This document shows positions 59,955 to 64,000 of a stretch of 64,000 nucleotides of DNA, piece by piece. A program made the position numbers and the translations under genes. The notes under the pieces were generated by a model, which saw only the letters and a list, made by a program, of their open reading frames with translations, had not been told where the DNA came from and made no database searches. Position 1 is the first letter of the stretch. Each line of letters starts with the position of its first letter. The stretch spans positions 62,001-126,000 of the forward strand of contig NZ_QUAJ01000004.1 of NCBI RefSeq assembly GCF_003391055.1, written 5' to 3'. Source of the stretch: Psychrilyobacter piezotolerans. GTDB lineage: Bacteria; Fusobacteriota; Fusobacteriia; Fusobacteriales; Fusobacteriaceae.

Positions 59955-60018
59955 ATATTATACTCATCTATCTCCTGGTTTCCTCCAAGGAAGATAAACT
60001 CTATCTTAAATAACCATA

Positions 60019-60048
60019 AAAAAAGAAGGCAGAAGCCTTCTTTTTTTA
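60019..60048. terminator. Bidirectional terminator overlapping a small gene's stop
   Basis: AAAGAAGGC-AGAA-GCCTTCTTTTTTT. On the minus strand it follows the stop of the 53-residue gene directly. Confidence 0.8.
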
Positions 60049-60207
60049 GTATAACTTCAGCCTTATCATAATAAGTGCATCCTCTTCTCCTACTAATCTG
60101 TAACCCTTTGCCATAAGCTTTTTTACCTTATATCTGTTATAGATATATGGAAATGACAGGTTAAGGGTTATCTTTTCACCACTCTTAGACATTAAATTAA
60201 TTTTCAT
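60046..60207 (-). CDS. Small basic protein, 53 aa
   Basis: GGAGGATAAGG precedes the ATG at 60207. The 53-residue product reads MKINLMSKSGEKITLNLSFP to a C-terminal MIRLKLY and has many Lys and Arg residues, with a GYRLVGEEDALIMIRLK end. The strong site, tight terminator and clear codon structure support a real gene. It is divergent from a DeoR regulator, 157 bp away. No family recognised. Confidence 0.65.
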   Translation of the reverse strand: MKINLMSKSGEKITLNLSFPYIYNRYKVKKLMAKGYRLVGEEDALIMIRLKLY

Positions 60208-60229
60208 CCTTATCCTCCTTTTCAAAATG

Positions 60230-60285
60230 TTTCATTTAACTTCATACCCTTTCTTTTGGTTACATTCTATTTCATTTAGTTTCGA
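60230..60285. promoter_or_regulatory. Paired TTTCATTTA motifs, candidate DeoR operator
   Basis: TTTCATTTAACTTC at 60230-60243 and TTTCATTTAGTTTC at 60270-60283 are direct repeats 40 bp apart, in the space between the small gene and the divergent DeoR-type gene. DeoR regulators bind such repeated TTTC-type half sites, so autoregulation is plausible. Confidence 0.5.
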
Positions 60286-60364
60286 ATGTCAAGAAAAATT
60301 TAAATTTATTTCAGAAAAGATATGGTATAATTGAATTAATAAATTAAAAGAAGGAGGGATTTGA

Positions 60365-61126
60365 ATGTTTGCTCAGGAGAGACGATCAGAGATATTAAAG
60401 ATCCTTATGAATAAAACAAAGGTAAGAGTGAAGGAATTAAGCCTTAATTTTGATGTCAGTGAAGTCATCATACGAAAGGATTTGAAACTTTTAGAAGAGG
60501 AGGGAAAGTTAGAGAGAACCCATGGAGGAGCCATCTTAAAAAAAGAAATCCCCGTGGATATCTCCCTCAACCACAGAAAGGTAGTCAATTTAGGAGGAAA
60601 AAAAAAGATAACCAATAAACTCTATAAAATTATAGAGGATGGAGAAATTGTATTTTTAGACTCCTCCAGTACCAATCTTCTCCTTGCTGAAAAATTAGCT
60701 GAATCACCCAAGAAAATCACAGTAGTAACCAATATGCTGGATATCATGAAATGCCTGGATGGAGTGGACAAGATTGAACTCATAGGTATCGGCGGGACAT
60801 ACCACAGTGTTTTGGGAATTTTTTTAGGGGGGCTGGCCTTAGACTCTGTCCTCAAAATAAATACACAGAAACTTTTTCTAGGAGGAACAGGAATAGATGT
60901 TCAAAAAGGGAATATCAGTATCATTGACTCCAATGAAGCAACCTTAAAAAAAGCCATGATTCAAATGGCCTCAAAGGTATATTTTGTATGCGAAAAAGAT
61001 AAATTTCATTCCTACGGAATCTATAACTTTGGAACTATCGATGACCTGGATGCTGTAGTGGTAGATGAAAAACCTGAAAAACAATTTGAAGAGAAATTAA
61101 GGGAAAATGGTGTGGAAATTATTTAG
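60365..61126 (+). CDS. DeoR/GlpR-family transcriptional regulator
   Basis: The 253-residue protein has an N-terminal winged helix (RRSEILKILMNKTKVRVKEL, then VSEVIIRKDLKLLEEEGKLE, then RTHGGAIL) and a C-terminal DeoR sensor domain (IEDGEIVFLDSSSTNLLLAE). These repress sugar genes until a phosphosugar binds. No target operon is obvious besides its own upstream region. AGGAGGGATTTGA precedes the ATG. Confidence 0.9.
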   Translation: MFAQERRSEILKILMNKTKVRVKELSLNFDVSEVIIRKDLKLLEEEGKLERTHGGAILKKEIPVDISLNHRKVVNLGGKKKITNKLYKIIEDGEIVFLDSSSTNLLLAEKLAESPKKITVVTNMLDIMKCLDGVDKIELIGIGGTYHSVLGIFLGGLALDSVLKINTQKLFLGGTGIDVQKGNISIIDSNEATLKKAMIQMASKVYFVCEKDKFHSYGIYNFGTIDDLDAVVVDEKPEKQFEEKLRENGVEII

Positions 61127-61301
61127 GAGAATTCAGAAAAAAAGAGGGTCAAAGTTTACAGGTCTTTTGTATATTTTAAAATAAAGATTAAAGAGTTCAA
61201 ATGTCTAAAAAATTATATACTAAACTTTCACCTTATGATAATCCTTTAAATACGAAAAAATGTTAAAAAGTACGAAAACCGAATACCAATTCTGAAAAAG
61301 A

Positions 61302-61330
61302 TTGACAATGACCCGAAATTAAAGTATAAT
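61302..61330 (+). promoter_or_regulatory. Perfect-consensus sigma-70-type promoter
   Basis: TTGACA at 61302-61307, 17 bp, TATAAT at 61325-61330. Both boxes match consensus exactly. The start codon of the transporter lies 375 bp downstream, so a long leader is implied. Confidence 0.9.
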
Positions 61331-61336
61331 ATCAAT

Positions 61337-61613
61337 GTAAGTTTTTAATATTGGTGAAGTAAAGTTGAAAAGTACTTAGAGTGATGAGATTTATAATATT
61401 ATTTTAAAACAAAATAGTAGTGTAGATTCGAATTATTTGTAATGAGGAAATTTCTCTTGAAAAATTATTAATTTAGAACTGGGGTTTATTCAGGGTCTTA
61501 TAAATTAGGCAATGATTATACTACTATTTGGTGGTATAAAGCGAGTCATAACGGCGAAACTTAAACACTCTAACTCTATTATCCTTGGGATAGTTGAGTT
61601 GGGGTGTTTTTTT
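61337..61613 (+). ncRNA. Unclassified leader RNA of the osmoprotectant operon
   Basis: About 277 nt between a consensus promoter and a terminator, with no reading frame. Helices visible by eye include GAAGTA/TACTT (about 61355-61377) and TTATACTAC-TATTTG-GTGGTATAA (about 61516-61539). The segment ends in a terminator, which is the layout of attenuators and riboswitches. GTTTA (61484-61488) could pair with TAAAC (61562-61566) just at the terminator base. No known riboswitch class was matched. Covariation has not been tested. Confidence 0.6.
61564..61613 (+). terminator. Intrinsic terminator ending the leader RNA
   Basis: AACACTCTAACTCTATTATCC pairs with GGATAGTTGAGTTGGGGTGTT, allowing G-U pairs and one mismatch, followed by TTTTTTT. 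It lies about 90 bp before the transporter gene and would block it unless overcome. Confidence 0.8.
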
Positions 61614-61704
61614 ATTATTTTTGTAAAAATTTTAAACAGCATAAACCTATAAAAACCAAAACAAAATATCGTAAAACAATAATTTTATATCCAAAGGAGG
61701 GTTT

Positions 61705-62853
61705 ATGATTGAATTGAAAAACGTTACCAAAAGTTTCGATGGTAAGAATAAAGTGGTTAGTAATCTTAATCTAAAGATTGAAAAAGGAGAGTTTGTTGTT
61801 CTCATAGGGGAAAGTGGATGCGGTAAGACTACAACTATGAAAATGATTAACCTTTTGGAAAAACCAACAAAGGGTGAAATATTCATAGACGGAGAAAATG
61901 TAAAAAGTCAGGATCTCATGGAGCTCAGAAGAAATATAGGTTATGTTATTCAAAAGGTTGGATTGTTTCCGCATATGACAATCGGTGAAAACATAGAACT
62001 TGTTCCTACTCTTAAGAAGTGGTCAAAAGAGGAGAAAAAAGCGAGGACCTTTGAATTGCTGGAGCTTATGGATCTTCCGGCAGAAGATTTTTATTACAGG
62101 TATCCAAATGAACTAAGTGGAGGACAGCAGCAAAGGATAGGGATAGCAAGGGCCCTGGCTGTAAATCCAGAGATAATACTCATGGATGAACCATTCAGTG
62201 CCTTGGATCCTATAACAAGAGAAAAACTTCAGGATGAGATGATGAATCTTCAGGATGAACTGGGAAAAACAATAGTTTTTGTTACTCATGATATGGATGA
62301 GGCTCTAAAGCTGGCAGATAAAATAGCCGTAATTAAAGATGGAGAGGTTATTCAATTTGATACCCCAGAAGAGATACTGAAAAATCCAGCAAATCATTTT
62401 GTAGAGTATTTCTTTGGAAAGGACAGAATGTGGAAAACTCCTGAAATGCTGTTAGCAAAGGATATAATGAAGAAGAAATTTGGGAAAATAGGGGTTAAAG
62501 GAAGTCCGGCGAGGGCCATAGAGATAATGAAGGAAAGAGAGACAAATACCCTTATCGTAGTAGACAGAGAGGGAGAGAAGAAACAAAAACCTGTAGGAGT
62601 AGTCACAAGAAACATGATAATGAAAAACAATGGCCACAGTATGAAGATGAAAGAAATAATGGCATCCAGTGAGGATTTTATTATAGATGAAAATACTAAT
62701 ATGGTGGAAGTTCTGAATATAATGTCAAAAATAAACTTCAGATCCATACCAATAGTAAATAAAGATAAATTACTAGTAGGAGCAATTACTCCAATAAGTC
62801 TTCTTAACATAATTACAGAAATATCTCCAAGTATAGAAGGAGGGGAACTTTAA
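61705..62853 (+). CDS. opuCA: Glycine betaine/carnitine/choline ABC transporter ATP-binding protein
   Basis: The 382-residue protein has an ABC ATPase at 1-240: Walker A GESGCGKTT, signature LSGGQQQRIGIARAL, Walker B IILMDEPFSALDP. Two CBS domains follow at about 255-370 (AKDIMKKKFGKIG, then MKEIMASSEDFII). CBS domains in this family gate transport by ionic strength or c-di-AMP. It pairs with the permease (3 bp gap) and binding protein. AAAGGAGG site. Confidence 0.93.
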   Translation: MIELKNVTKSFDGKNKVVSNLNLKIEKGEFVVLIGESGCGKTTTMKMINLLEKPTKGEIFIDGENVKSQDLMELRRNIGYVIQKVGLFPHMTIGENIELVPTLKKWSKEEKKARTFELLELMDLPAEDFYYRYPNELSGGQQQRIGIARALAVNPEIILMDEPFSALDPITREKLQDEMMNLQDELGKTIVFVTHDMDEALKLADKIAVIKDGEVIQFDTPEEILKNPANHFVEYFFGKDRMWKTPEMLLAKDIMKKKFGKIGVKGSPARAIEIMKERETNTLIVVDREGEKKQKPVGVVTRNMIMKNNGHSMKMKEIMASSEDFIIDENTNMVEVLNIMSKINFRSIPIVNKDKLLVGAITPISLLNIITEISPSIEGGEL

Positions 62854-62856
62854 GAT

Positions 62857-63504
62857 ATGAATAAAATAGATTTTTTACAATTTTTAGAGTATAGAAGTCC
62901 AGAAATTTTTAAACTGACAGGAGAACACATGAAGATAACAGGAGTTGCGGTTTTTCTTGCAATTCTTGTAGGGGTGCCTTTGGGAATATATATAACTAAA
63001 AACAAGAAGGTAGCCAACGTGATACTAAATACTGCAAATATATTCCAGACTTTACCAAGTTTGGCTCTGTTTGGACTTATAATTCCAATTATGGGAATAG
63101 GCTTCAAGCCTGCAATATTTGTTTTATTTTTATATGCGTTACTGCCTATTATTAAAAATACATGTATAGGAATAAACAGTATAGATCCTTCGATAATCGA
63201 AGCTGGAAGAGGAATGGGAATGACCAAGACACAGATACTGACAATGGTTGAAATACCTCTGGCTCTGCCTATTATTATGGGAGGGATCAGAATATCCACG
63301 GTAATCAATATCGGTACTGCAACAATAGCGGCTCTTATAGGAGCTGGAGGACTAGGGGACTTTATCTTCAAGGGAATATCTATGGGTAATAATAATTTGA
63401 TCTTAGCTGGAGCTATACCAACAGCTCTTTTAGCATTATCAGTTGACTTTATTCTAGGTCTTGTGGAAAAAAATCTGACTCCTCAAGGGTTAAAGAATAG
63501 CTAA
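62857..63504 (+). CDS. opuCB: Osmoprotectant ABC transporter permease
   Basis: A 215-residue permease with about six membrane helices; the ABC coupling loop reads IEAGRGMGMTKTQILTMVEI, followed by PLALPIIMGGIRISTVINIG. Typical length of OpuCB/OpuCD. It forms the membrane channel for betaine-like compounds. Only one permease gene is present before the binding protein; a second could lie beyond the window. Confidence 0.92.
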   Translation: MNKIDFLQFLEYRSPEIFKLTGEHMKITGVAVFLAILVGVPLGIYITKNKKVANVILNTANIFQTLPSLALFGLIIPIMGIGFKPAIFVLFLYALLPIIKNTCIGINSIDPSIIEAGRGMGMTKTQILTMVEIPLALPIIMGGIRISTVINIGTATIAALIGAGGLGDFIFKGISMGNNNLILAGAIPTALLALSVDFILGLVEKNLTPQGLKNS

Positions 63505-63573
63505 TATATTTTAAGGCTATAAAATTTATGAGGGATAAAGATAGTTATATATAAAACTAAGGAGGATTAAAAG

Positions 63574-64000
63574 ATGAATAAGTTATTTAAAAATGTAGTA
63601 CTTATTATGACAATTATGGTATTTGCTGCATGTGGGAAAAAAGAGGCTGAGGTAGAAACAATCAAGATCGGTCACAAAAACTACACAGAACAAAGAGTAC
63701 TAGGACAATTGTTTGCAGTTATGATTGAAAATCATACTGATTATAAGACTGATGTAAAAGAATTAGGAGGAACAAAGATTGTATTTGAAGCCCTAAAAAG
63801 TGGAGATATAGATCTTTACCCTGAATTTTCTGGGACGGCATATGTAGCCCTTTTAAATGAAAGTGGATTAAAAGATCCTAGTGAAGTCCATAAACTTGTA
63901 AAGGATAGACTTAAAGCAGAGAATAATTTGGATTATTTAAATCCTTTAGGTTATAACAACACATATACTTTGGCAGTAAGAACTGAAACTGCTGAGAAAT
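63574..64000 (+). CDS. opuCC: Osmoprotectant-binding lipoprotein, 3'-partial
   Basis: Starts behind AAGGAGGA. A lipoprotein signal (TIMVFAACG) leads to IKIGHKNYTEQRVLGQLFAV and IDLYPEFSGTAYVAL, landmarks of OpuCC/OsmF glycine betaine-type binding proteins. About 142 codons are visible and the gene runs off the right edge. It captures the osmolyte outside the inner membrane and delivers it to OpuCB. Confidence 0.9.
   Translation, partial: MNKLFKNVVLIMTIMVFAACGKKEAEVETIKIGHKNYTEQRVLGQLFAVMIENHTDYKTDVKELGGTKIVFEALKSGDIDLYPEFSGTAYVALLNESGLKDPSEVHKLVKDRLKAENNLDYLNPLGYNNTYTLAVRTETAEK

Follow-up and report, generated by a model that had tools for sequence, protein, structure and literature searches.

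How bacteria read their osmotic state is incompletely understood. Na+-I riboswitches precede the osmotic-stress and osmolyte genes ablA and eam and are transcription ON switches, in which a stem of the aptamer excludes the terminator (PMC9337991). A high level of c-di-AMP signals the absence of osmotic stress (PMC9337991). The leader RNA described here, found upstream of an opuC operon in Psychrilyobacter piezotolerans, resembles the Na+-I class (DUF1646 motif, RF03071) in its position before osmolyte genes and in its predicted action as an ON switch by terminator exclusion. The c-di-AMP riboswitch (ydaO, RF00379) likewise controls osmotic-homeostasis genes, often via a terminator. By their descriptions, the opuB motif of Enterobacteriaceae (SRC-50-1) is a complex five-helix structure with long conserved stretches before opu-type ABC transporters (PMC11109978), and the proX motif of Spiribacter (SRC-29-1) stands before a glycine betaine transporter gene (PMC8632094). 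Judged by sequence and its conservation, the leader is a real, conserved and uncatalogued cis-regulatory RNA.

The features of the locus are listed in Table 1, with positions in the window, that is, the whole stretch of 64,000 nucleotides that was analysed. The initial annotation of this DNA had described a perfect promoter followed by about 277 nt without a gene, and both descriptions hold. The promoter is the sole match scoring 12/12 within 60000-64000, and the plus strand has no ORF of at least 60 aa between the end of the preceding gene at 61126, named DeoR-type by reading its sequence without a search, and opuCA at 61705; the opuCA leader is about 280 nt long. The CBS domains attributed to the product were also found, two of them (PF00571). 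Compared with shuffled sequences, both the leader (61337-61620; z -4.9) and its segment 61470-61620 (z -5.6) fold with unusual stability, and none of 200 shuffles equalled either. Upstream of the DeoR-type gene, the minus strand of the window carries a strong terminator-like hairpin at 60017-60048 (TAAAAAAAGAAGGC/GCCTTCTTTTTTTA).

Table 1. Features of the opuCA leader and operon (window positions)
Feature	Position	Strand	Basis
Sigma-70 promoter TTGACA-17-TATAAT	61302-61330	+	12/12 consensus match
Conserved structured RNA (5' domain, 3' domain, terminator 5' arm)	61354-61579	+	Covariance model R1, alignment A3
P1 flanks TGAAGTA and TTGAAAAA	61355-61361; 61457-61464	+	Conserved
Helix P1, 5' domain	61361-61458 (61361-61369 with 61450-61458)	+	Two-sided changes in 9/9 columns; 80.6% of cells paired
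Hairpin P2, 5' domain	61379-61438 (61379-61384/61433-61438, 61389-61394/61422-61427)	+	91-95% paired
TAGAACTGGGGTTTA, upstream strand of proposed antiterminator helix P3	61474-61488	+	Near-invariant; 98.6% of cells paired with 61562-61578
Hairpin A, 3' domain (TTCAGGGTCT...AGGCAATGA)	61488-61516	+	96% paired; two-sided changes in five pairs
Hairpin B (TATACTAC/GTGGTATA)	61517-61538 (61517-61524/61531-61538)	+	99.6% paired across 32 homologues
Hairpin C (GC-GA-GTC...GGC-GAA-AC)	61541-61560	+	GTC/GGC stem 100% paired; flanking pairs by RNAalifold
TAAACACTCTAACTCTA, P3 downstream strand and terminator 5' arm	61562-61578	+	Near-invariant though terminator partner drifts
Intrinsic terminator, hairpin 61563-61609 and T-run 61607-61613	61563-61613	+	MFE; 94.6% of cells paired in 28 homologues
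Ribosome-binding site AGGAGG of opuCA	61695-61700	+	Sequence
opuCA/proV-type ABC ATPase, two CBS domains	61705-62853	+	TIGR01186 401 bits (cut-off 326.6); PF00571
opuCB-type ABC permease	62857-63504	+	Nearest families ProW/ChoW, scores under their cut-offs
OpuAC-domain substrate-binding protein, cut by window end	63574-64000	+	PF04069

A DNA search with the opuCA leader returned many similar leaders in relatives, several per genome, and the covariance model that had been proposed as a check was built from 29 of these homologous leaders (R1). The RNA family so defined, about 210 nt in size, occurs in 17 of 98 Fusobacteriota genomes (29 copies, four of them in the P. piezotolerans genome of the window), with matches down to E 1e-39 and E 4.3e-22 for the window copy. 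Three copies in spirochaete MAGs and one in an alphaproteobacterial MAG bring the total to 33. Scanning a species-level genome collection for the core pattern gave the alphaproteobacterial copy and two of the spirochaete copies, while the third came from a phylum-wide search. The RNA is rare in Spirochaetota, since matches came from only 2 of the 393 genomes sampled and, within one order, from 1 of 294. In Alphaproteobacteria 1 of 385 genomes matched, namely the MAG already found (L066, 2173-2560). The hairpin loops of this copy hold large insertions, which are probably why model R2 fails to detect it, and the BCCT gene downstream shares 68% identity with fusobacterial BCCT, which suggests joint transfer of RNA and gene, or misbinning. 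No match was obtained in viral contigs searched for the core pattern or in an E. coli genome collection searched with the window leader, and plasmid matches to the leader itself were restricted to fusobacterial replicons.

Thirty-two copies were aligned to the covariance model (alignment A3). Their structure keeps 93.4% of cells paired, compared with 33-41% after the partners have been shifted by 1-3 columns; two-sided changes occur in 34 of the 46 pairs, and none of 500 shuffles attained any of the covariation measures. These figures lean upwards, as the structure was derived from most of the same sequences and related sequences are not independent. Nevertheless, with so large a gap, and with sequences ranging from Fusobacteriota to Spirochaetota, a chance origin of the covariation is implausible. 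When RNAalifold was run on A3 without being supplied with the hairpins, it returned the same ones, P1 excepted.

The RNA is laid out as a 5' domain, in which P1 encloses hairpin P2, followed by a 3' domain, where P3 closes off three hairpins. The 5' domain is flanked by TGAAGTA, GGAAA and TTGAAAAA; P1 is imperfect in the window copy, and P2 has two-sided changes in 10 of its 12 pairs. Among the helices named by the initial annotation, TATACTAC/GTGGTATA proved to be hairpin B, one of the best preserved, with two-sided changes in 6 of 8 pairs. Hairpin A is extended by an outer pair from A61488, for which homologues offer G-C alternatives. Segments TAGAACTGGGG and GGGTC/GGCAA are invariant, and hairpin C may contain a tandem G-A motif. 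Shortened variants (L083 and L098) indicate that hairpins B and C are able to shrink. In L083 (G081:C15, 1440-1650), which precedes a ProV/OpuA gene in another Fusobacteriota genus, the 5' domain is rearranged and hairpin C is lost; this variant is possibly a minimal form of the RNA.

The strong terminator reported 90 bp before opuCA is indeed present, separated from the ATG by about 90 nt and from the Shine-Dalgarno by about 80 nt. Its 5' arm (AAACACTCTAACTCTA) hardly varies. The 3' arm, in contrast, alternates between U-A and U-G pairing (one-sided changes: 10 and 8), which argues for a second constraint on the 5' arm. The alternative partner of this arm is the near-invariant TAGAACTGGGGT(TTA), which closes the 3' domain as helix P3. 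With 61563-61578 shared between them, the terminator and P3 would be mutually exclusive, according to the sequence and to in-silico folding.

A pairing of GTTTA (61484-61488) with the base of the terminator had been suggested for this leader, and the pairing itself stands: with TAAAC (61562-61566) it is kept in 97.5% of cells across the 32 homologues, and three sequences (L014, L083 and L098) show changes on both sides. The exact register did not stand in full, as RNAalifold prefers the neighbouring TAGA-AC-TGGGGT with ACTCTA-AC-TCTA, whose outer pair (A3 columns 134-269) changes from A-U to G-C in seven sequences, and covariation links the A of GTTTA more closely to the base of hairpin A than to its partner in the GTTTA/TAAAC register. 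The latter is thus possibly one of two registers of P3, forming its inner part, and not an exclusive one; the core would compete with the terminator under either.

In silico, transcripts ending before the 3' arm form the outer TAGA/TCTA pairs of P3 with a mean probability of 0.73-0.99 in 29 of 32 copies; P3 is not formed in L011 and L014, and L098 forms well only the part in the GTTTA register. Once the 3' arm is included, the terminator wins over P3 in all copies. It is far more stable than P3 at equilibrium in these calculations, and switching would therefore have to be kinetic. The energy of the P3 duplex was rejected as independent proof of the antiterminator, as about 10% of shuffled 15-mers are as good. 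Since the duplex is not unusually stable, the case for P3 rests on its conservation and its exclusivity with the terminator; because most of P3 is invariant, few of its pairs are open to a test by covariation.

The genes behind the copies point to a common role. BCCT transporters follow 17 of the 33 copies, APC permeases six, OpuC operons five, OpuA/ProV ATPases three, an apparent opuCA relic one, and a KamA-family aminomutase with glutamine synthetase III one. Gene types were assigned by profile search of one or a few representatives and otherwise by near-identical N-termini. What all of these except the APC permease share is the uptake or synthesis of compatible solutes, brought about by proteins of unrelated folds (BCCT, OpuC, ProV/OpuA, and KamA with glutamine synthetase III). 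The osmotic theme is weaker in the six APC copies; the permease, of the APC superfamily, lies behind the same RNA in two genera (L036, L043 and relatives) and may carry an unrecognised osmolyte. The spirochaete copies precede proV-type genes and one kamA-type gene. In the latter case (L063, 3034-6547) the aminomutase is followed by glutamine synthetase III, possibly a beta-amino-acid osmolyte pathway, and this context resembles the ablA and eam contexts of Na+-I riboswitches (PMC9337991).

Carriers usually own further BCCT genes without the element; in the window's genome it is missing from four of the five. In L032 (G000:C42:7600-14000, element 1488-1733) an intact RNA stands before a truncated, decayed-looking opuCA (MVKLKNVIKKFENEKV...), with a D-Ala-D-Ala ligase-like ORF next; it looks as if the RNA has survived the loss of its gene or now serves another. 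In an RNA tree, which is indicative only as it was built on short sequences, gene context and RNA lineage are discordant, with BCCT, OpuC and APC copies intermingled within the window's genus. By separating context from lineage, the tree suggests that the RNA behaves as a re-used module.

Taken together, covariation, recurrence before related genes and the exclusive pairing of core and terminator bear out the riboswitch or attenuator layout assigned to this leader at the outset. The RNA is very likely regulatory, it is probably a terminator switch of the ON type, and it is plausibly a ligand-binding riboswitch. We propose with moderate confidence that it is a transcription ON switch for compatible-solute genes, the core of which is stabilised by an osmotic-stress cue. 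Polymerase starting from the promoter would produce the two-domain RNA, in which P3 would close the three hairpins of the 3' domain by pairing TAGAACTGGGGT(TTA) with ACTCTAACTCTA/TAAAC, thus occupying the nucleotides of the terminator 5' arm. If the core is stabilised, P3 would persist, the terminator would be blocked and opuC would be transcribed; if not, transcription would end at about 61613. We infer both the switching and its sign from the fact that the most conserved fold includes the terminator 5' arm, so that stabilising the core should promote read-through. A signal rising under osmotic stress would in turn fit an ON switch by which osmolyte uptake increases. The stabilising signal would most probably be an osmotic-stress cue sensed directly, with intracellular Na+ or K+ as a first guess. 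More specifically, but only tentatively, the RNA may be a new riboswitch class in Fusobacteriota and Spirochaetota that senses a general osmotic cue (K+, Na+ or ionic strength) and turns on solute uptake or synthesis.

Other signals have to be weighed against this proposal. Glycine betaine, choline, carnitine or a beta-amino acid, as the solute transported or made, could be the ligand, and the families of the importers behind the 17 BCCT copies and those before OpuC/ProV, which handle quaternary amines, agree with this. Such a ligand is nonetheless unlikely: it does not suit the copy before the aminomutase and glutamine synthetase III or the six before an APC amino-acid permease, and an ON switch driven by an imported solute would be feed-forward, which is unusual for importers. 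The initial annotation had suggested c-di-AMP and ionic strength, and ions or the osmotic state remain candidates, whereas c-di-AMP is disfavoured by the predicted ON sign. As c-di-AMP is high when osmotic stress is absent (PMC9337991), it would activate uptake at the wrong time. A diadenylate cyclase domain is present in 94 of the 98 Fusobacteriota genomes, and most carriers lack a known c-di-AMP riboswitch, RF00379 matches above cut-off being confined to the Fusobacterium-like genus g13. This leaves room for a new class of c-di-AMP-sensing RNA, but a near-universal cyclase fails to separate carriers from non-carriers, and we regard this reading as very unlikely. Given the gene neighbours and the predicted sign, an osmotic or ionic signal would be likelier than c-di-AMP or any single transported solute.

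The core might alternatively be an antiterminator bound by a protein, for example by an osmotically controlled RNA-binding protein, given that BglG/LicT-type systems also use overlap of terminator and antiterminator; the weak bglG-cis-reg score on the leader is at chance level (18.7 bits, E 0.66). Typical protein-bound antiterminators are smaller than this conserved core, which spans about 210 nt and has many junction nucleotides, and no linked regulator gene recurs among the first downstream ORFs, so that protein binding appears distinctly unlikely. Ribosome-mediated attenuation through a leader peptide is highly improbable. About 14 closely related copies do contain a short ORF, 11-14 codons long (MLLMWHIVSL-DET type), but it is missing from the window copy and from distant copies, and the RNA varies through indels and covariation and not by codons. 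A leader-peptide attenuator was rejected, as no short ORF is conserved across the leader copies.

The preferred osmotic ON switch would have wider consequences. A single RNA module precedes osmolyte genes of at least four unrelated kinds, and does so in two phyla or more, which lets sequence by itself reveal one regulon; for marine fusobacteria such as Ilyobacter, Propionigenium and Psychrilyobacter-type genomes, a salt regulon is predicted. The leader RNA would represent a new riboswitch class, with a list of ligands open to testing, if it binds an ion or solute; if it binds neither, it would amount to an osmotically tuned antiterminator of a new kind.

The view that the leader belongs to no known class was upheld. 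The Rfam 15 scan gave no family at gathering score, and matches at E up to 10 were chance ones, led by a miR-430 score on the terminator hairpin. A search of openly accessible article texts found no report of this RNA. Membership of the Na+-I class was rejected, as cmscan of the window leader gave no RF03071 match; the Rfam model of that class has 55 positions, compared with about 210 in the leader RNA. RF03071 was found in none of the 98 Fusobacteriota genomes, and because Na+-I riboswitches were not found there, a different sensor could fill their role. The c-di-AMP riboswitch is an OFF switch, whereas the leader RNA is predicted to be ON. Membership of RF00379 was rejected, as the leader has no covariance-model match and the RF00379 matches lie elsewhere; two carriers of genus g13 (G019 and G030) have clear, separate RF00379 matches beside the leader RNA. 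By their descriptions, the two remaining motifs differ from the leader RNA in mode of control. In the mostly enterobacterial opuB motif, P1 includes the Shine-Dalgarno, indicating translational control (PMC11109978), and the proX motif, mainly of Spiribacter, is likewise translational (PMC8632094); the window element stops at the terminator, leaving about 80 nt before the Shine-Dalgarno. A distant kinship to the opuB motif is possible. With transcription-terminating riboswitches, finally, the leader shares a covarying, aptamer-like structure in the 5' leader, a terminator that, by sequence and in-silico folding, would exclude a core helix, and recurrence before functionally related genes.
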